From: an uncultured Treponema sp.
Lineage (GTDB): Bacteria > Spirochaetota > Spirochaetia > Treponematales > Treponemataceae
Length of the DNA: 64,000 nucleotides
Reading direction: 5' to 3'
Assembly (NCBI GenBank): GCA_947167345.1
Contig: CAMVHR010000001.1
Coordinates: 1 to 64,000, forward strand
In this document: in pieces, positions 13,509 through 41,785 of the stretch
Position numbering within the stretch: position 1 is the first letter of the stretch
Layout: each line of letters starts with the position of its first letter
Notes under the pieces: model-generated
Seen by the model: only the letters and a program-made list of their open reading frames with translations
Told to the model about the DNA's origin: nothing
The model's database searches: none
Made by a program: the position numbers and the translations under genes

Positions 13509-13550
13509 GGAGTTGTGTCGCAAAACCTGATTATAGATATAATGCAATAA

Positions 13551-16997: not shown

Positions 16998-17026
16998 TTG
17001 ACTTTTTTTGAATGATATTGTAGTGT
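16998..17026 (+). promoter_or_regulatory. promoter for the glutamine synthetase leader
   Basis: TTGACT (16998-17003), 17-base spacer, TAGTGT (17021-17026). The predicted start near 17033 places the leader hairpin at about +10. The divergent region 16759-16997 holds only the upstream operon's ribosome-binding site and AT-rich promoter DNA; I saw no small gene there. Confidence 0.45.
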
Positions 17027-17042
17027 GAAAGTACAAAACATC

Positions 17043-17121
17043 AAAGGCGATGTGAATAGTTTTTTTAGTAGTTCCGAAAATTTCGGAATGATTAAAGCAA
17101 CTGTTCACATCGCCTTTTTTT
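17043..17121 (+). promoter_or_regulatory. glnA leader hairpin, putative transcription attenuator
   Basis: A 19-bp stem (17043-17061 with 17099-17117) has no mismatch and one G-U pair, starts AAAGGCG, ends CGCCTTT, and continues into a seven-T run. Its apical region holds an inner hairpin TTCCG/CGGAA with a 7-base loop. The preceding gene is divergent, so this cannot be a terminator for an upstream gene; it must lie in the glnA leader. It shares design and exact 27-base spacing to the start codon with the amt leader at 19279-19340. Confidence 0.65.
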
Positions 17122-17148: not shown

Positions 17149-19239
17149 ATGGCTGTTAATGTCCCTGAATTGTTTGGCAGTATGGTTTTTAATCAGAAAG
17201 TAATGAAAGACAGGTTGCCGAAGGAAACTTTTAAGGCTCTCAAAAAGACTCTTGATGATGGAGAACCTCTCCACATAGACATTGCAAATCAAGTTGCTCA
17301 TGCAATGAAAGAGTGGGCTATTGAAAAAGGTGCAACTCACTATACACACTGGTTCCAGCCATTGACAGGAATTACAGCTGAAAAGCATGACTCATTTATT
17401 ACTCCACAGGATGACGGTAGCGTAATAATGGCATTCAGCGGAAAGGAACTTGTAAAAGGTGAGCCAGATGCTTCTTCTTTCCCTTCTGGAGGCCGTCGCG
17501 CAACATTCGAAGCTCGCGGTTATACAGTCTGGGATCCGACTGCATACCCTTTTATAAAAGAGCATACCCTGTGTATCCCGACAGCATTCTGTTCATACAC
17601 TGGCGAAGCACTCGATAAAAAGACTCCTCTTCTTCGCTCAATGGAAGCTCTGAATGTTCAGGCAAAGAGAATCCTTAAATTGTTTGGCAAGGATATTCGC
17701 CACGTTGCTACAACAGTTGGTCCTGAGCAGGAATACTTTATTGTAGACCGCAAGCTCTTTGATGAACGCAAAGATCTTCTCATGACAGGTCGCACTCTTT
17801 TTGGAGCAAAACCTTCTAAAGGTCAGGAAATGGATGACCAGTACTTTGCAGCTCTTAACCCAAGAATTGTAGAGTACATGGAAGATTTGAACGAAACTTT
17901 GTGGAAATATGGCATCTATTCAAAGACAGAACATAACGAAGTTGCCCCTGCCCAGCACGAAATGGCTCCAATCTTTACAACAACAAACCTTTCTACTGAT
18001 CAGAACCAGCTGACAATGGAAGTGATGAAGAAAGTTGCAAAACGCCATGGACTTGTATGCCTTCTTCATGAAAAGCCTTTTGCTGGTGTAAACGGTTCTG
18101 GTAAGCATAACAACTGGTCTATGTCTACAAATGAAGGTGAGAACCTTCTTGAACCAGGAAAAACACCTGCCAGCAATGCTCAGTTTATTCTGTTCTTGAC
18201 TGCAATAATTAAGGCTGTAGACGAAAATCAGGATTTGCTGCGCATTTCTGTTGCAAGCGCTGGTAATGATCATCGTCTTGGAGCAAACGAGGCACCTCCA
18301 GCTATTATTTCTGTATATCTTGGTGACGAGCTTCATGCAGTTCTTGAGTCTATCAAGGATGGTACTCCTTACAACAGGGCTACAAACCAGAAGATGACGA
18401 TTGGTGTTGACGTTCTGCCACCTATTCCAAAGGATTCTACAGACCGCAACCGTACATCTCCATTTGCATTTACAGGTAATAAGTTTGAATTCCGTTCATG
18501 TGGTTCAAGCCTTTCAATTGCTGGTCCTAACACAACCCTTGATGCAATTGTTGCTTATACTCTTAAGCAGTTTGCCGATGAACTGGAACAGGCAAAAGAC
18601 TTTAATTCTGCATTGCAGGCGTTGATTAAGAGGGAAATTACTGCACACTGGAGAATCGTATTCAACGGTAACGGATATGATGCTTCATGGGTTAAGGAAG
18701 CCGAAAAGCGCGGTCTTTTAAACCTTAAGACTCTGCCTGATGCAATGGCACACTATCTTGATGCAAAGAACATCAAATTGTTTACTGAACTTGGTGTTTA
18801 CACAGAAGTTGAGATGAAGAGCCATTATGACATTAAGCTTGAAAAGTATGCACAGGTTCTGAACATTGAAGTTCAGACAATGCTTGAAATGATTAATAAA
18901 GACATTTTGCCTGCTGCATATAAATATATCCGCGATGTAAGCAAGACTGTTGCAGACTTGAAAGCTGTAGTTCCTTCTGCAAAGGCAACTGCAGAAACAA
19001 ATCTCCTTTCTACACTTGATGGTCTGGTAAATGAACTTGCTCTGAAGGAAGAGGCTTTGTGCAAGGCTCATCTTGCGGCAAAAGCTTCTGATGACCCAAT
19101 GACAATCGCCCGTGCTTACGTTGATTCTGTTATTCCTGCAATGACAGAAGCTCGTGCCGTAGCAGATCAGATTGAGCCACTGCTTGGTGAAGACTATAAG
19201 CCATATCCTTCTTACGAGGATTTGCTGTTTAGAGTTTAG
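17149..19239 (+). CDS. glnN: glutamine synthetase type III
   Basis: 696 residues, the length of GSIII (about 700), much longer than GSI or GSII. N-terminal [29 protein letters not shown] and the ATP/metal-site [10 protein letters not shown] are characteristic of the family. The enzyme makes glutamine from glutamate, ammonia and ATP in the cytoplasm. Start ATG 17149 is chosen for GGAGG 8 bases upstream; an in-frame ATG at 17122 lacks a site. GSIII has no adenylylation loop, so control is likely by transcription, consistent with the terminator-like leader hairpin (17043-17121). The next gene, 128 bases on, is the ammonium transporter, behind a matching hairpin. Confidence 0.93.
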
Positions 19240-19278
19240 CTCTCAGTAGTTTTTTTGTAGTAACTGTTTTTTTAGCAC

Positions 19279-19340
19279 AAAGGCGTGCATGACATTCAAC
19301 CGTTTGTTTATAACGGCTCAATGTCGTGCACGCCTTTTTT
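19279..19340 (+). promoter_or_regulatory. amt leader hairpin / terminator between glnN and amt
   Basis: An 18-bp stem (19279-19296 with 19320-19337) with one G-U pair, starting AAAGGCG and closing CGCCTTT plus a U-run. It contains an inner hairpin CCGTT/AACGG with a 7-base loop. It ends 27 bases before the amt ATG, leaving no room for a promoter after it. Transcripts from glnN or from a promoter in the 39 bases upstream must pass it, so read-through control is expected. Confidence 0.65.
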
Positions 19341-19367
19341 ATTTTGCCATATTACGGAGGTAAAAAT

Positions 19368-21113
19368 ATGGATATAAGTGAAATTTCAACCCAAATCTCA
19401 CAGGTAAGCGGTGATATTTGGAGCGTATGGTTCTTGGCAGGAGCTGCACTGGTATTTTGGATGCAGGCTGGTTTTGCCATGGTAGAAGCAGGATTTACTC
19501 GTGCAAAAAACACTGGTAACATTATCATGAAGAACCTTATGGATTTCTGCATTGGAACTGTAATGTGGTTTCTTATTGGTGCTTCCCTCATGCTTTCTTA
19601 TACTGATCCTGCAACTGGTGAGGTAAGCCGTGGAATATGGTCATTCTTTGGAAAACCAGGCTTTAGTGTATTTAGCCAGTATGCAACGTTTGACTTTTCA
19701 GGCTTTGTCTTTAACCTTGTGTTCTGCGCTACTACAGCTACAATTGTTTCTGGAGCAATGGCAGAAAGAACCAAGTTTTCTACATACTGCATTTACTCAG
19801 CAATAATATCTGGAATAATCTATCCTATAGAAGCTCACTGGATATGGGGTGGGGGATTCCTTGCTTCATGGGGATTCCATGACTATGCAGGTTCATGCTG
19901 CATTCACATGGTAGGTGGCATTTGTGCTCTTATTGGAGCTAAAATTCTTGGGCCACGTCTGGGCAAGTTTGAGAAAGATAGTTCCGGCAAAATCATAAAG
20001 GTTCATGGATTCCCTGGACACAACATTGCCATGGGTGCACTCGGTGTGTTTATACTTTGGTTGGGTTGGTACGGATTTAACGGTGCTGCGGCAACAGACG
20101 TTCCTACACTCGGTTCTATATTCCTGACAACAACAGTTGCTCCAGCTGTTGCAACTGTTGTAGCAATGCTCTTTACATGGATTAAATATGGTAAACCAGA
20201 TGTTTCAATGTGTCTTAATGCATCCCTTGCAGGTCTTGTTGCCATTACAGCACCATGTGATGTTGCTGACTGTGCTGGAGCTGCCATAATTGGTGTTGTG
20301 GCAGGTCTTCTTGTAATATTTGGTGTATGGCTGTTGGATTATAAACTTCATGTAGATGATCCTGTAGGTGCTGTTGCCGTCCACATGATGAACGGTATCT
20401 GGGGTACTGTAGCCGTAGGTCTTTTTGCAACTGATTCTGCTCCAGGATTTGCCCTTGCCGGAATTAAGGAAGGTGTATTCTATGGTGGTGGTTTTGAACA
20501 GCTTGGAAAGCAGTTTGGAGGAATGGGCATTACAATTATATGGACTATAATAACCATAACAATAGCATTCCTTATCCTTAAAAGTACAATAGGACTTCGC
20601 GTAAGCGCAGAGGAAGAAATTATAGGTCTTGATAAGCTTGAGCATGGTCTTTCATCAAGTTATGCAGGATTTTCAATCAGCTATACTCAGGAAGAAGTTG
20701 AAGAAGCAAAAGAGGCTGGCATAGCCATACCTGAAACAGCTCCTGCTTCAAAAGATGTTCCGGCTCATAAAGTTGTTATCATTACACGTCAGAGCAAATT
20801 TGATGCCCTTAAGACTGCCATGAATGATATTGGTGTTACAGGAATGACAGTTGTGAATGTTATGGGCTGCGGAATGCAGAAGGGTGCTGCGGAGTATTAC
20901 CGCGGAGCACCAGTTGCAATGAGCCTTTTGCCAAAGATAAAGGTCGAGATAGTTGTTTCAAAGGTTCCTGTCGAGACTGTGGTAGAAGTTGCAAAGAAGG
21001 CTCTCTACACTGGACATATAGGAGACGGAAAGATATTCGTCTATCCTGTTGATAATGTTGTAAAAGTCCGTACTGGAGAATCTGGATACGATGCCTTACA
21101 GGATGAAGAGTAA
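19368..21113 (+). CDS. amt: ammonium transporter with fused C-terminal PII domain
   Basis: 581 residues from ATG 19368 (GGAGG upstream). Residues 1 to about 425 form an Amt/Mep channel: MQAGFAMVEAGFTRAKN, the first pore His in CCIHMVGG and the second in GAVAVHMMNG. After a linker, about 467-581 form a complete PII signal protein, with the C-terminal signature TGHIGDGKIFVYPVDN. The channel imports ammonium; PII proteins plug Amt according to ADP/ATP and 2-oxoglutarate, so this fusion is a built-in gate. The T-loop reads YYRGAPVAMSLLPK: the uridylylated Tyr51 of GlnB/GlnK is Val, so that modification cannot occur. Expression probably follows the leader hairpin at 19279-19340. Confidence 0.93.
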   Translation: MDISEISTQISQVSGDIWSVWFLAGAALVFWMQAGFAMVEAGFTRAKNTGNIIMKNLMDFCIGTVMWFLIGASLMLSYTDPATGEVSRGIWSFFGKPGFSVFSQYATFDFSGFVFNLVFCATTATIVSGAMAERTKFSTYCIYSAIISGIIYPIEAHWIWGGGFLASWGFHDYAGSCCIHMVGGICALIGAKILGPRLGKFEKDSSGKIIKVHGFPGHNIAMGALGVFILWLGWYGFNGAAATDVPTLGSIFLTTTVAPAVATVVAMLFTWIKYGKPDVSMCLNASLAGLVAITAPCDVADCAGAAIIGVVAGLLVIFGVWLLDYKLHVDDPVGAVAVHMMNGIWGTVAVGLFATDSAPGFALAGIKEGVFYGGGFEQLGKQFGGMGITIIWTIITITIAFLILKSTIGLRVSAEEEIIGLDKLEHGLSSSYAGFSISYTQEEVEEAKEAGIAIPETAPASKDVPAHKVVIITRQSKFDALKTAMNDIGVTGMTVVNVMGCGMQKGAAEYYRGAPVAMSLLPKIKVEIVVSKVPVETVVEVAKKALYTGHIGDGKIFVYPVDNVVKVRTGESGYDALQDEE

Positions 21114-35741: not shown

Positions 35742-35755
35742 TTTAGTGTTGCAAT

Positions 35756-35799
35756 GACGCATCTAAAGTCTTAATGGCTTTGGGTGCGTCTTTTTTTTT
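35756..35799 (+). terminator. terminator-type hairpin in the AraC-family gene leader
   Basis: GACGCATCTAAAG (35756-35768) pairs with CTTTGGGTGCGTC (35778-35790; wobbles and a mismatch inside), followed by nine T. It can end chemoreceptor transcripts, but it also lies between a good promoter and the ATG 28 bases later, so it should attenuate the regulator gene. Confidence 0.65.
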
Positions 35800-35827
35800 G
35801 CTCATATTATAGCTGGTGGTTGTGTAA

Positions 35828-36667
35828 ATGAAATATAAGACTGAACTCATGTCAATTCAGCCATATTTTGTGCTGGACGCTGATGATTTTTGCCAGAAAG
35901 TGTTGCTTCAAAAAGGAATTTCTCATTTTTATAGTTTTTCTAACTATTCAGATTCAGACATTCCAATCAAACTTTTTGTAGACGGATGCAGTAATATTAT
36001 TTTTGAGTATAGTAAAGCCTCTGATGACCTCTGGTCAGTACGAAGTCATTTTATTGGAAGTACAATAGAACCAAGAACTTTTTGCGTAAGAAAAAACTGC
36101 GAATATTTTTGTGTACGTCTGCAACCAAGTGCCGCTTGTTTTATAAAAGAAATAGGTGTCAAAGATTCTATTGGAAAAATTATTATTCTTGATGAACTTT
36201 CTTCTATGAAAGAATTTTGCAGCACAATGGGAATGCAGAAAAATTTTGATTCAAGAATGCACACTTTTTTAGACTACTATGAAAATATTTTACAGGCTAA
36301 AGAAGATAAATCAAAAAACTGTCTTTTCAGACAGATTGCTGACATTATTGTTCAGCACAGGGGCATGATAAAGGTTAGCGAACTTGAAAAACTGACAGGT
36401 TATTCTTCAAGATACATAAACATTATATTTGAACAGGAGTTAGGATTCAGCATTAAACAGCTTTGCACAAGCGTAAAGTTTCAGTTTTTATTGAATGATT
36501 TAAATCGAGGTGCTTCTGATTCTTTGACAAGGCTTTCATCTGAATATAAGTTTTATGATCAGGCTCATTTTATTCATGAGTTTAAGAACTGTACTGGAAA
36601 GACTCCTTCTGAATATGCCAGTGAGGTGTTTAAAGGAAATTATGTACAGAATATAGTGAATATGTAA
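35828..36667 (+). CDS. AraC-family transcriptional regulator
   Basis: 279 residues. The N-terminal 165 residues form an effector domain I do not recognise; the C-terminal 100 hold the AraC helix-turn-helix pair, with the second-unit signature YDQAHFIHEFKNCTGKTPSEY clear and the first at ISELEKLTGYS-like KVSELEKLTGYSSRYINI. The ribosome-binding site is weak (GGTGG). It lies between the dehydrogenase and ornithine-cyclodeaminase-like genes and is the likely local regulator of the island. Confidence 0.85.
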   Translation: MKYKTELMSIQPYFVLDADDFCQKVLLQKGISHFYSFSNYSDSDIPIKLFVDGCSNIIFEYSKASDDLWSVRSHFIGSTIEPRTFCVRKNCEYFCVRLQPSAACFIKEIGVKDSIGKIIILDELSSMKEFCSTMGMQKNFDSRMHTFLDYYENILQAKEDKSKNCLFRQIADIIVQHRGMIKVSELEKLTGYSSRYINIIFEQELGFSIKQLCTSVKFQFLLNDLNRGASDSLTRLSSEYKFYDQAHFIHEFKNCTGKTPSEYASEVFKGNYVQNIVNM

Positions 36668-36738
36668 TGTTCCGATTTTTACAAGAACTTTTACTTGCAG
36701 AATGTTAAAGTACATTATCAAAACAATTTAGAGACAGC

Positions 36739-36783
36739 AAAGACGCTGAGGTTTTCTAAGTGAAAGCTTCGCGTCTTTTTTTT
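36739..36783 (+). terminator. terminator-type hairpin directly before the ornithine-cyclodeaminase-like gene
   Basis: AAAGACGC (36739-36746) pairs with GCGTCTTT, continuing through a bulge into GAGGTTTTC/GAAAGCTTC, about 17 bp, then eight T ending 20 bases before ATG 36804. A promoter cannot fit after it. It may end the AraC transcript while also gating read-through into the catabolic genes. Confidence 0.65.
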
Positions 36784-36803
36784 ATGTCTCAAGGAGTGTA
36801 TGT

Positions 36804-37940
36804 ATGGAATATCCAAAGGTTGATTTCTTGTATTTGAGTGAAGAGGACATGATTGCAGCTGGCGTAAAGGACATGGCTGGCTGCATTGAAGCAATGGAAG
36901 AAATGTTCAAACTCTTAAAAGCCGGCAATTACCGCATGGGTGGAGCAAATGGAAACTCACACGGATGTATGGTTACATTCCCTGCAACATCTCCATTTCC
37001 TGAAATGCCAGTTGATGGCCCTGATCGTCGCTTTATGGCAATGCCTGCATATCTTGGCGGACGCTTCGATATGGCTGGAATGAAATGGTACGGCTCCAAT
37101 GTTGAAAATCGTGAAAAGGGATTGCCTCGTTCAATTCTCATGTTGACATTGAACGATAAGGATACAGGCGCCCCACTTGCATATATGAGTGCAAACATTC
37201 TTTCTGCTTATAGAACTGGTGCTGTGCCTGGTGTCGGATTTAAATATTTTGCTCCAGAAGATGCTTCTGTAGCTGGCATTGTAGGACCTGGCGTAATGAG
37301 TAAGACAGCTCTTGCTGCAATTATGTCAGCACGTCCAAGTGTAAAGACTGTAAAGGTAAAGGGACGCGGAAAAAAATCTCTGGATTCTTTCATCTCTGCA
37401 GCAAGAACTGATTATCCTTCTGTTGAGTTTGTTGTTGTGGAAAGCATTGAAGAAGCAACACGTGGTAGTGACATTGTTTACGTAAGTACATCCGTTCCTA
37501 CGGGAAATATTTCAGAATATCCTTACATCAAGGAAGAATGGATTAAGAAGGGGGCAATGATTTGTACAACGGCTTCTTTGCGTTTTGATGATGACTTTAT
37601 CATTAACCGCGCACGTAACGTTGCGGACAACATAAAACTGTATGAAGCTTGGGAAGAAGAGTACAAGCCTGACGCATACAATACAATCCCTATCCCTGCT
37701 GTTCGTGTAGAAGATCTTATTGTAGAAGGTAAGATGAAGAAAGAACAGATTGATGATTTGGGAGATGTCCTTACTGGTAAGATTCCTGTACACAGAAATA
37801 AGGATGAAATTGTAGTTTATTCTGTTGGTGGAATGCCTGTTGAAGACATTGCATGGGGAACAATTGTGTACCGCAATGCACTTGCAAAGGGCATTGGCAC
37901 AAAGCTGAACCTTTGGAATAAGCCTTACATGGTTGTTTAA
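36804..37940 (+). CDS. ornithine cyclodeaminase / mu-crystallin family protein
   Basis: 378 residues. MAGMKWYGSNVENREKGLPRS and the Rossmann segment VAGIVGPGVMSKTALAA identify the family, whose members include ornithine cyclodeaminase, alanine dehydrogenase and imine reductases. Close homologues in gut anaerobes are, as I recall, labelled tyramine oxidase subunit B; I would not rely on that name. It probably acts on an amino acid or imine linked to the dehydrogenase encoded upstream. AAGGAG precedes the ATG. It starts the run of closely packed genes to 41785, and its leader carries a terminator-like hairpin. Confidence 0.85.
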   Translation: MEYPKVDFLYLSEEDMIAAGVKDMAGCIEAMEEMFKLLKAGNYRMGGANGNSHGCMVTFPATSPFPEMPVDGPDRRFMAMPAYLGGRFDMAGMKWYGSNVENREKGLPRSILMLTLNDKDTGAPLAYMSANILSAYRTGAVPGVGFKYFAPEDASVAGIVGPGVMSKTALAAIMSARPSVKTVKVKGRGKKSLDSFISAARTDYPSVEFVVVESIEEATRGSDIVYVSTSVPTGNISEYPYIKEEWIKKGAMICTTASLRFDDDFIINRARNVADNIKLYEAWEEEYKPDAYNTIPIPAVRVEDLIVEGKMKKEQIDDLGDVLTGKIPVHRNKDEIVVYSVGGMPVEDIAWGTIVYRNALAKGIGTKLNLWNKPYMVV

Positions 37941-37964
37941 TAAAAGCATTACAGGAGAATGATT

Positions 37965-38324
37965 ATGGAATTTAGCAGAGTAGAAGTTATAACAGGAATT
38001 TCAAAGATTACAGCCTTGCAGAAGGCTCTTGGCCGGTTCCGCATTTCAGGAATGACTGTATATCAGGTTTTAGGCTGTGGAGTCCAACACGGAACTCAGG
38101 AGTTTGAAGTTGAAGAGCGCAAAGAGATTCAACTTCTTCCAAAGGAAGTTGTAATGATTGTTCTTCCTACTTCAGAAGTTCCAGACCTTATTGAATTTCT
38201 TAAAAAGGAACTTTATACAGGTCATATTGGTGACGGAAAGATTTTTGTAAGCCAGATTACCGATATTGTCCGTGTTCGTACAGGTGAGCAGGGAATGGAA
38301 GCACTTATTTCAGGAGAAAAATGA
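37965..38324 (+). CDS. PII-family nitrogen regulatory protein
   Basis: 119 residues from ATG 37965; an ATG 6 bases earlier sits too close to AGGAG. The C-terminal signature TGHIGDGKIFVSQITDIVRVRTG is nearly identical to that of the Amt-fused PII domain. The T-loop is divergent (QEFEVEERKEIQLLPK) and lacks Tyr51, so no uridylylation. PII proteins bind ADP/ATP and 2-oxoglutarate and control a partner by contact. Placed between catabolic enzymes and an amino-acid permease, it may regulate one of those. The 4-base overlap with the RidA gene implies tight coupling. Confidence 0.9.
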   Translation: MEFSRVEVITGISKITALQKALGRFRISGMTVYQVLGCGVQHGTQEFEVEERKEIQLLPKEVVMIVLPTSEVPDLIEFLKKELYTGHIGDGKIFVSQITDIVRVRTGEQGMEALISGEK

Positions 38325-38710
38325 TGAAAAGAATAAACTATTCTTCTGGAGCACCGCTTGAACAGAAAATGGGATATTCCAGGGCTGTAAGGATAGGAGA
38401 CTTTATATTCGTTGGCGGCACTACTTCCGTACAGCCTGACGGTTCTGTGTATGGGGAAGGTGATTCTTATGCACAGGTAAAGTATATCCTTGAAAAACAG
38501 ATTAAAATGATAGAACAGGCTGGCGGCAAAAAAGAAGATGTATATAATGTGCAGATGTTTTGGACTCCAGATTTTGATAAGTCTGGCATGAAAGCGTATA
38601 CGGAACTGTTTCATGATGTAATGCCATTGTGCACTGCTGTTACAGTTTCTTCTCTGAATAGACCGACACAACTTGTAGAAATTGAAATGTCGGCCGCTGT
38701 TCAGACTTGA
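38321..38710 (+). CDS. RidA (YjgF/YER057c) family protein
   Basis: 129 residues, typical length. FIFVGGTTSVQPDG and the C-terminal RPTQLVEIEMSAA place it in the Rid family; RidA itself hydrolyses reactive imines/enamines to ketoacids plus ammonia. That fits products of both the flavin dehydrogenase and L-serine dehydratase in this cluster. The conserved Arg before P(x)xLVEIE is present (RPTQLVEIE). Confidence 0.9.
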   Translation: MMKRINYSSGAPLEQKMGYSRAVRIGDFIFVGGTTSVQPDGSVYGEGDSYAQVKYILEKQIKMIEQAGGKKEDVYNVQMFWTPDFDKSGMKAYTELFHDVMPLCTAVTVSSLNRPTQLVEIEMSAAVQT

Positions 38711-38741
38711 GTTTTACAGAATAAATTTAACGGGAGGTTCT

Positions 38742-40229
38742 ATGTCAACCAAAGAACAGAGACTTGGGTTGGGTAGCGTTATAGCAACTGGTGTTGGATT
38801 GATTGTTGCAACAAGCTGCCTTTTGTCCATTGGACAGGGGGCAAGTGCAATTGGTACAACATTTGTAATAAGCATGGCTCTTGCCTGTGCATTCAATATT
38901 CTTACAGCACTTTCTATCTGTGAATTGAATGCTCTTATGCCTAACATATCTGGAGGAATGGCACAGTTTACACTTGCAAGCTGTGGACCTGTTTTTACAA
39001 TAGTTACTAATATGGGAGGGTTCTTGTGCTGTCAGGTGATTTTGGGCAGCTCCGAAGCTTCCATGTTTGGTAACACATTAAGTCAGGTTTTGCCTTCTAT
39101 TCCTATTTCTGGCGCAATGTATTCAATTGCACTTATTGTATTGCTGTGCATTTTGAACTTGCGCGGTGTAGATATGTTTGCAAAAATCCAGAACTTTGTA
39201 GCTTACGGGCTGATTATTTCGCTCATTGTACTGGGCATTCTGGGTGTCGTAAAAATAAATCCTTCTGCCGTTGTTGAACAGCCATCTGTTCTTTCTTCGG
39301 AAATGGGGGATATATTTTCACTGTTAGGACTTTCTTTCTTCCTTTTTATTGGTGTAGAATTTATAGTTCCTATTGCTCCAGAAGTAAAGAATTCACGTCG
39401 TGTAGTTCCGCTTGGAATGGTACTGAGTCTTGTAATCATTCTTGTAATGCAGATTCTCATTACCTTCGGATTTAAGAACTATACAGCATGGAATGAACTT
39501 TCTCAGAGTACAATTCCTCATGTTCTATATGGAACTGCACTTTTAGGAAAAGCTGGAACTGTATGGATGAGTGTTGTATCTATTCTTGCGGTTGTAAGTT
39601 CTGTTAATACAATCATGTTCGGCATTCCTCAGCTGTGCTATGGAATGGCTAAGATTGATTTGCTGCCAAAGTTCTTCATGCGTAAGAATAGCAGAGGTAA
39701 CCCTTACGTTGCCTTGCTTATAGTTACAATTGCATTATGTGCAATTAATGCAACAGGACTTAGTTCAAGTGAAAAGCTCGTGTTCTTGATTAACATTGGA
39801 TGTGTATTCTGGATTTTCTGTTATGTAATGGTTCATATTGATGTAATCATTCTGCGCTTTAGAATGCCAAAAGCTCCACGCACATTTAAGTTACCGTTGG
39901 GCATTTTAATTCCTATAATTGGAGTTGCAGGAAATCTGTACATGATATGGAACATTGCACCTGATGCAAGAAACCGTATCATAATATTTGGAATCTTTGG
40001 CGGAGTTTCGCTTTTTCTTGCTGTGTACGCATTCTTTTGGGTAAAGTTCAGAATGAAGAAGCCGTTCTTTAAGCCGTTTGCAATTAAGGATGTAATGGCA
40101 ATGGATACTGATTTGTATCAGATACGCCATTATCCGCTTCTTGCAAAAAAGTTTCATATTGAAGCAACTCCAGATGTCGTTGCTGTAAGTGCGGAAACAA
40201 ATACTGGTACACGGCCTGATTTGGATTGA
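38742..40229 (+). CDS. APC-family amino acid permease
   Basis: 495 residues from ATG 38742 (GGGAGG upstream) with about twelve membrane helices. The first helix region GLGSVIATGVGLIVATSC, with the GQGASAIG motif, is typical of amino acid-polyamine-organocation transporters. The C-terminal 60 residues are cytosolic. It probably imports the amino acid or amine used by the island. It is followed within 4 bases by the serine dehydratase genes. Confidence 0.88.
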   Translation: MSTKEQRLGLGSVIATGVGLIVATSCLLSIGQGASAIGTTFVISMALACAFNILTALSICELNALMPNISGGMAQFTLASCGPVFTIVTNMGGFLCCQVILGSSEASMFGNTLSQVLPSIPISGAMYSIALIVLLCILNLRGVDMFAKIQNFVAYGLIISLIVLGILGVVKINPSAVVEQPSVLSSEMGDIFSLLGLSFFLFIGVEFIVPIAPEVKNSRRVVPLGMVLSLVIILVMQILITFGFKNYTAWNELSQSTIPHVLYGTALLGKAGTVWMSVVSILAVVSSVNTIMFGIPQLCYGMAKIDLLPKFFMRKNSRGNPYVALLIVTIALCAINATGLSSSEKLVFLINIGCVFWIFCYVMVHIDVIILRFRMPKAPRTFKLPLGILIPIIGVAGNLYMIWNIAPDARNRIIIFGIFGGVSLFLAVYAFFWVKFRMKKPFFKPFAIKDVMAMDTDLYQIRHYPLLAKKFHIEATPDVVAVSAETNTGTRPDLD

Positions 40230-40232
40230 TGT

Positions 40233-40925
40233 ATGAATATTTTTGACATATTAGGACCTGTTATGGTTGGACCTTCCAGTTCTCATACAGCTGGTGCTGT
40301 GCGGATGGGGTATGTTGCTCTAAAACTTCTAAAGGACAAACCTGTGTATGCCAGCATAGAATTGTTCGGTTCATTCGCTGCAACTGGCAAAGGACACGGA
40401 ACTGACCGTGCTCTTGTTGCCGGTTTGCTAGGAATGAAAAGTGATGACAGCAGAATACCATACAGTCTTAATATTGCTCAGGATGAAGGCATGCGAGTTT
40501 TTTTTGAATATCCTGAAAACAATGGAGTTCAGACTGCTGATTTTCACCAGGGTGATATGCACCCGAATACCGCGGTTTTTAATCTGCAGGGAGAACACGG
40601 CAGAAAACTTTGCATGCAGGCTTCTTCCATTGGCGGTGGAAGAATTATGGTAAACAAGATAGACGGCATTACTGTAAACTTTTCTGGAGAAATGCATACT
40701 CTGATTGTTCACAACTATGACACCCCTGGTCATGTTGCCGCCGTAACAAATCTTTTATTTGAAAACAAAATAAATATTGCCACAATGAATTTGTATCGTG
40801 TTGGACGCGGTGCTTATGCTGTAATGGTTTTGGAAACGGATCAGAGTGTTGATGAAAAAATTGTCTGCGATATTGAGAAAATAAAAGGTATAATAAAAGT
40901 AACTTATTTTGACGGAGAACAATAA
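40233..40925 (+). CDS. sdaAB: L-serine ammonia-lyase, iron-sulfur-dependent, beta subunit
   Basis: 230 residues. GPSSSHTAGAVRMG near the start is the family signature, and the C-terminal ACT domain (LIVHNYDTPGHVAAVTNLL) is present. With the alpha subunit it converts L-serine to pyruvate and ammonia. The stop codon overlaps the next start (TAATG). Confidence 0.94.
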   Translation: MNIFDILGPVMVGPSSSHTAGAVRMGYVALKLLKDKPVYASIELFGSFAATGKGHGTDRALVAGLLGMKSDDSRIPYSLNIAQDEGMRVFFEYPENNGVQTADFHQGDMHPNTAVFNLQGEHGRKLCMQASSIGGGRIMVNKIDGITVNFSGEMHTLIVHNYDTPGHVAAVTNLLFENKINIATMNLYRVGRGAYAVMVLETDQSVDEKIVCDIEKIKGIIKVTYFDGEQ

Positions 40926-41785
40926 TGGCTTTTAAAACACTCAAAGAAATTGCAGATTATGCCATTGCAGAAAAACTTCCATTTTGGAAAGCAGTATTAA
41001 AAGATGATTGCGAAGAAAATGGAACTGACCAAAAAACTTCCGTTGAAAAAATGGCACATCTTTGGGCAGTCATGCTTGATACTGTAAAAAATTATAATCC
41101 CGATGAAGTTTCTGCCAGCGGTTTGAGTGGAACTGATGGTGAAAAATTTGCTCGCTATGCATCTGAGAATAAATCATTATTTGGAAGTTCTGTATCTGAA
41201 ATGATAAGTGTTGCAATTAAAACTGCAGAAGCCAATGCCTGTATGCACCGCATTGTTGCATGCCCTACAGCTGGTTCTTGTGGGGTTGTACCTTCTGTGT
41301 TTATTCCTCTATTTAAAAGCGGTGCTGCTACAGAAGAAGATTGCATTCACGCACTTTTTACGGCTGCAGGCATTGGAAAAATCATAGCTATGAATGCAAG
41401 CATTTCTGGAGCAGAAGGCGGATGTCAGGCAGAAATAGGTTCTGCATCTGCAATGGCAAGTGGTGCATTGGTTGAAATGCGAGGTGGAACTCCAGAGCAG
41501 ATTGTTGCAGCCGTAGGTTTTGCACTTCAAAATTTAATGGGACTTGTGTGTGACCCTGTTGGCGGACTTGTAGAAATTCCTTGTGTAAAGCGTAATGTTA
41601 TTGGATGTGTGAATGCTGTGTCGTGTGCAGAAATGGCTCTTGCAGGAATTTGTGTCAGAATTCCTGCTGATGAGACTGTTTGTGCAATGGCAGCTGTAGG
41701 AAGAGCTATGAATGTTGATTTACGCGAAACAGGACGAGGCGGTCTTGCAGCAACTCCTGCGGCTCTGAGTATTGTTCATAGATAA
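40925..41785 (+). CDS. sdaAA: L-serine ammonia-lyase, iron-sulfur-dependent, alpha subunit
   Basis: 286 residues. PTAGSCGVVPSV and the cysteines in EGGCQAEIG, GLVCDPVGG and later CAEMALAG fit the 4Fe-4S-binding alpha chain of the two-subunit enzyme. It is the last gene of the amino-acid island; no strong terminator follows, only an 84-base gap before the next membrane protein gene. Confidence 0.94.
   Translation: MAFKTLKEIADYAIAEKLPFWKAVLKDDCEENGTDQKTSVEKMAHLWAVMLDTVKNYNPDEVSASGLSGTDGEKFARYASENKSLFGSSVSEMISVAIKTAEANACMHRIVACPTAGSCGVVPSVFIPLFKSGAATEEDCIHALFTAAGIGKIIAMNASISGAEGGCQAEIGSASAMASGALVEMRGGTPEQIVAAVGFALQNLMGLVCDPVGGLVEIPCVKRNVIGCVNAVSCAEMALAGICVRIPADETVCAMAAVGRAMNVDLRETGRGGLAATPAALSIVHR

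Follow-up and report, generated by a model that had tools for sequence, protein, structure and literature searches.

Predicted ANTAR-controlled attenuators with a single hexaloop in the glnA and amt leaders of an uncultured treponeme

NitR was reportedly described by Stutz et al. in 2007 as an ANTAR regulator of ammonium assimilation. In ANTAR-regulated operons the antiterminator is a hexaloop hairpin with A at position 1 (A1) and G at position 4 (G4), part of which also belongs to the 5' arm of an intrinsic terminator, and the published targets are mostly nitrogen genes (PMC3369931). In Clostridium saccharobutylicum the ANTAR protein NitR acts by antitermination and, when nitrogen is limiting, induces the genes of glutamine synthetase and glutamate synthase (PMC6316151; also PMC4676874). 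The targets of EutV and NasR contain two hexaloops joined by a short linker, and the upstream one, P1, is needed (PMC3369931, PMC3369936). This two-hexaloop rule rests on few systems. Walshe et al. found in 2022 that EutV takes up one hexaloop at a time, binding P1 or P2 on its own about as strongly as the pair; they redefined the minimal site as a single hexaloop and raised the question of how widely such sites are used, a point that their structure paper left open (PMC8934654). A literature search without most subscription journals returned no account of ANTAR control in treponemes and no description of a nitrogen control circuit for gut treponemes.

We analyzed a window of 64,000 nucleotides from an uncultured Treponema species. 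On its forward strand lie glnA for a type III glutamine synthetase of 696 amino acids (17149..19239) and amt for a 581-amino-acid ammonium transporter with C-terminal PII domain (19368..21113). Each gene is preceded by an intrinsic terminator on the same strand, at 17043..17121 in the glnA leader (stem 17043-17117, U-run 17115-17121) and at 19279..19340 between glnA and amt (stem 19279-19337, U-run 19335-19340). No promoter was seen between the two genes. As the sequence-only reading of this DNA had described, both stems open with AAAGGCG, close with CGCCTTT plus a U-run and contain a single G-U wobble each. The AAAGGCG...CGCCTTT pattern occurs twice in the window against 0.01 expected from shuffling, and with 36-66 bases in between it is found at only these two places in the 3.2 Mb genome. 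Across the genus the exact pattern was noisy with many control matches, yet it pointed to glnA leaders. Folding against shuffles gave -43.6 kcal/mol for the glnA stem (z -12.2) and -35.4 kcal/mol for the amt stem (z -8.4).

Two further likenesses between the stems held in part. A 5-bp inner hairpin with a 7-base loop, proposed for both, is predicted for the amt stem, whereas the glnA stem is predicted to carry an 8-bp hairpin with a 3-base loop atop an extra 7-bp helix; this form is not conserved. The end of the U-run does lie 27 bases before the start codon (17149 and 19368) in both leaders, but this spacing is not kept in relatives: from the end of the stem to the glnA start we count 31 bases here, 37 and 30 in the two nearest relatives (G012 and G037), and the distance varies widely in relatives generally. 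Since the distances differ even in the nearest glnA relatives, we rejected a function of the 27-base spacing and regard it as coincidence.

The feature that appears to carry the function starts 4-5 bases upstream of the stems as first described, with CATC in the glnA and GCAC in the amt leader, and had been overlooked. Here the foot of each terminator can alternatively form a small hexaloop hairpin, ACATC(AAAGGC)GATGT at 17038..17053 before glnA and GCAC(AAAGGC)GTGC at 19275..19288 before amt, both on the forward strand. These are the proposed ANTAR sites, the glnA hairpin acting as predicted antiterminator; its loop and 3' strand are shared with the terminator. In both leaders hairpin and terminator are mutually exclusive folds. 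The hairpins alone reach -4.5 and -5.3 kcal/mol compared to -35 to -44 for the terminators; as the small hairpin is this weak beside the terminator, read-through should need a protein. An RNA class without description had been suspected, but the stem foot is an ANTAR-type hexaloop with A1 and G4 that overlaps an intrinsic terminator. Compared with the dual-hairpin definition (PMC3369931), the leaders contain a hexaloop hairpin with A1 and G4 and a stem of 3 bp or more (P2), this P2 shares bases with an intrinsic terminator ahead of a nitrogen-related gene, and an ANTAR-domain protein is encoded in the same genome. The upstream P1 hexaloop is missing, and we therefore file the leaders as a single-hexaloop variant and not as canonical members. 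With this qualification the glnA and amt leaders are very probably ANTAR-controlled transcription attenuators with one hexaloop per terminator.

For comparison, 165 glnA and amt leaders were gathered from the genus, most of which carry the hexaloop element. When no loop letters were required, 152 of 219 leader terminators had a six-base loop at their foot against 39.5 in the shuffled control, and loops of 4, 5, 7 or 9 bases numbered 21-31. Among the 152 loops A1 is present in 128, G4 in 142 and a closing C-G pair in 139; the unselected consensus reads A, A, N, G, R and mostly C or G, closed by C-G. Compensatory changes in hexaloop stem and terminator stem lie well above shuffled and slid controls, in a set chosen for having stem and terminator, which makes the percentages of paired positions partly circular. 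The 5' strand of the hexaloop is conserved and covaries, though the terminator can do without it. These comparisons support the earlier suggestion of structural selection and a common RNA-binding factor, and the further matches before nitrogen genes that had been proposed as a check were found in treponeme leaders. Element counts are low estimates, as the finder misses units with the hexaloop inside the terminator arm (e.g. G056, G032). The unit nearest amt in G020, G023, G028, G038, G085 and G089 often has a GATGAT-type loop, with G for A1 and G4 kept.

We then compared the distribution of the element with that of the ANTAR gene. An ANTAR protein is encoded in 87 of 98 genomes of the genus. 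At a completeness of at least 90%, all 39 genomes with the ANTAR gene and 2 of 7 without it contain the element (Fisher p 1.5e-5, with related genomes being non-independent); the two exceptions, G013 and G072, are fragmented assemblies in which no ANTAR gene was found. Five genomes with an ANTAR gene score no unit in the leaders examined, some of them having hexaloops in a register that the finder misses. A covariance model trained on the glnA and amt leaders, by which 150 first-look candidates were scored, yielded at least 67 matches in 12 ANTAR genomes (2-10 each) and at least 3 weak ones in 10 ANTAR-less genomes (0-1 each). In the ANTAR-less genomes G142, G180 (both near-complete) and G007 the glnA terminator is kept and the 5' strand of the hexaloop stem is lost.

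A predicted sigma-70 promoter of glnA lies at 16998..17026 on the forward strand, with -35 box TTGACT (16998-17003), a 17-base spacer and a weak -10 box TAGTGT (17021-17026) whose end lies 12 bases upstream of CATC in the hexaloop stem. In relatives 79 such promoters were found before elements compared to 7 expected, and amt leaders of Clostridia show the same closeness. Transcription typically starts about 7 bases after a -10 box. Only few bases would therefore precede the hexaloop, leaving no room for a transcribed P1. This bears on the possibility that the leaders are canonical dual-hairpin targets whose P1 is degenerate or located elsewhere, so that the architecture is not new. In every well-studied ANTAR target both P1 and P2 are present and required (PMC3369931), and many leaders contain tandem units, each with its own terminator, which in some place a second hexaloop 27-38 bases upstream. 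However, P1 candidates upstream are near chance (21 against 11 expected, n=156; 5 against 2.8 expected, n=62), most of the loop-like ones are tandem units lying ahead, and in 76 of the 79 cases only 8-13 bases separate the end of the -10 box from the stem, too few for a transcribed P1. We consider a hidden P1 improbable. G204 and G179, which belong to another family of the order, share a hairpin AACGGC-GTT-GCCGTT directly ahead of the amt hexaloop; it occupies the place of P1 but is not a hexaloop.

Still less probable is that the stems are ordinary, unregulated terminators, the amt stem ending glnA transcripts and the glnA stem insulating from upstream transcription. They are indeed strong terminators, of a style (AAAGGCG...CGCCTTT) common in the genus, but the glnA stem lies downstream of the gene's own promoter and ahead of its start codon, the neighboring upstream gene is on the opposite strand, the covarying hexaloop 5' strand is not needed for termination, and the unit is specific to nitrogen genes and ANTAR genomes. 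About equally remote is a new ligand-binding RNA or the target of a different RNA-binding protein. The targets do share a pathway, and with Rfam 15 no family reached its gathering score at the leaders, the sub-threshold matches being implausible (e.g. animal microRNAs) and the sole match in the window a tRNA elsewhere. Yet the interior of the terminators varies freely, conservation being confined to the six-base loop and its closing pair, and the loop letters match ANTAR targets and are found together with ANTAR genes. The ligand implied by the sequence-only reading is thus not indicated, and a riboswitch found no support, including in the Rfam comparison.

The putative partner of the leaders is the single ANTAR protein of this genome (C20:44559-44717), 189 amino acids long and encoded between a type I glutamine synthetase gene and asnB. 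The order glutamine synthetase then ANTAR recurs in those loci of the treponeme order that extend far enough and in all 20 ANTAR loci of genomes reached through amt, which belong mostly to Lachnospiraceae and other Clostridia. Mapped by us from a printed alignment, the EutV residues K149, E160 and M172, which contact G4 or plug the loop, are kept in nearly all proteins, and the position of Tyr164 is mostly His. Asp53 of the receiver is kept in 44 of 47 proteins of the treponeme order and mostly lost in the Clostridia set; the usual acidic pair is absent, which makes control by phosphorylation doubtful. The neighboring type I glutamine synthetase may be the nitrogen sensor. In this genome glmS apparently lies upstream of the glutamine synthetase-ANTAR pair.

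Element, covariation, co-occurrence with ANTAR genes, regulon and absence of P1 are read from the sequences, and we infer from them a mechanism in which protein binding, antitermination, transcript starts and signal are predicted parts. By default the nascent RNA would fold into the long terminator and RNA polymerase would halt before glnA or amt. When nitrogen is short, active ANTAR protein, presumably the one encoded directly after the type I glutamine synthetase, would bind the structure emerging first, the hairpin of 4-5 bp with its AAAGGC loop, recognizing A1 and G4. Because the 3' strand of the hairpin and part of its loop form the foot of the terminator, a hairpin held in this way would block the terminator and transcription would proceed. 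There would be one hexaloop per terminator at the predicted 5' end of the transcript, some leaders having units in tandem with a terminator each. The signal would be the nitrogen state and, given that the receiver domain has no acidic pair, might reach the ANTAR protein through the adjacent glutamine synthetase. Counting against an ANTAR reading are the missing P1, the elements in G013 and G072, the five ANTAR genomes without a unit and the predominance of His at Tyr164.

Among described circuits NitR is closest, an ANTAR system tied to glutamine synthetase and glutamate synthase genes. By a NitR-type definition taken from PMC6316151 and general knowledge, the ANTAR gene lies beside a glutamine synthetase gene and the element precedes genes of glutamine synthetase and glutamate synthase, the control itself being predicted. 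Unlike that of NitR, the putative regulon also includes amt, asnB, carA, dapL and dapF, and the host is a spirochaete; the units here have single hexaloops. With EutV of Enterococcus faecalis (PMC3369931, PMC8934654) the leaders share the A1/G4 hexaloop on the terminator, and the G4-contacting residues of the protein are largely kept; EutV, however, is activated by phosphorylation and its targets need both P1 and P2 at a linker of 5-12 bases, whereas here the receiver has no acidic pair and each terminator one hexaloop. NasR and AmiR (PMC3369936, PMC7496416) likewise act on nitrogen genes by antitermination, AmiR with a pseudo-receiver that is not phosphorylated, but their targets are dual hairpins; NasR senses through a nitrate-binding domain and AmiR through its partner AmiC, while the gene neighbor here is type I glutamine synthetase. 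Walshe et al. expected single sites where no time limit is set by a transcribing polymerase (PMC8934654), whereas those proposed here overlap terminators. The system thus appears to be of the kind of NitR, EutV and NasR, and the variant without P1 looks new. The leaders suggest that single hexaloop sites may be widely used, and point to a nitrogen control circuit for gut treponemes. They form a large natural set of putative single-loop attenuators with promoters too near for P1 and ANTAR-less complete relatives as controls, which makes the single-hexaloop question directly testable.

Further units extend the candidate regulon. A third one in the window, TGC(AATGAC)GCA at 35750-35761 with terminator stem 35753-35793 (35750..35801, forward strand), was absent from the training set of the model and precedes a gene for an AraC-type regulator (35828-36667). 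A fourth, CAGC(AAAGAC)GCTG at 36735-36748 with terminator stem 36739-36778 (36735..36786, forward strand), precedes a cluster on the same strand (36804..41785) that encodes an ornithine cyclodeaminase/tyramine oxidase subunit B-like protein, a PII protein (37959-38324), a RidA-like protein, an amino acid permease and L-serine ammonia-lyase beta and alpha. By inspection, a GAC(AAAGAT)GTC unit follows a sigma-70-like promoter in this genome's asnB leader (contig C20, about 44.4 kb). Both the asnB and the AraC unit escaped the genome-wide model search, the latter coming from the search of the window. Model matches outside the training set precede gltB and gltD (glutamate synthase subunits), asnB (asparagine synthase B), carA (carbamoyl phosphate synthase small subunit), dapL (LL-diaminopimelate aminotransferase) and dapF (diaminopimelate epimerase). 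Weak matches on contigs C32, C19, C6, C17 and C58 of this genome and at 13545 of the window lacked a convincing hexaloop, and we took them for ordinary terminators or chance.

The unit is also found before amt in Lachnospiraceae, where 19 of 20 such genomes tested encode an ANTAR protein, and in two ANTAR-encoding genomes of another family. ANTAR-less relatives of the same order carry a sigma-54 site (TGGCA-N-TGC) before amt in 12 of 14 cases and no hexaloop unit; sigma-54 itself is present almost everywhere. This suggests a swap of regulatory systems before amt within the order. Taken jointly, the observations might describe a broad attenuator class of spirochaetes and Lachnospiraceae in which a lone ANTAR hexaloop at the 5' end suffices, the ANTAR protein works independently of phosphorylation with type I glutamine synthetase as sensor, and sigma-54 control of amt is replaced in treponemes; this combined reading is tentative, and we give it clearly less than an even chance. 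Identity of the Amt-PII protein to proteins from Lachnospiraceae and other Clostridia is about 65-72%, suggesting that genes have passed between Clostridia and gut treponemes.
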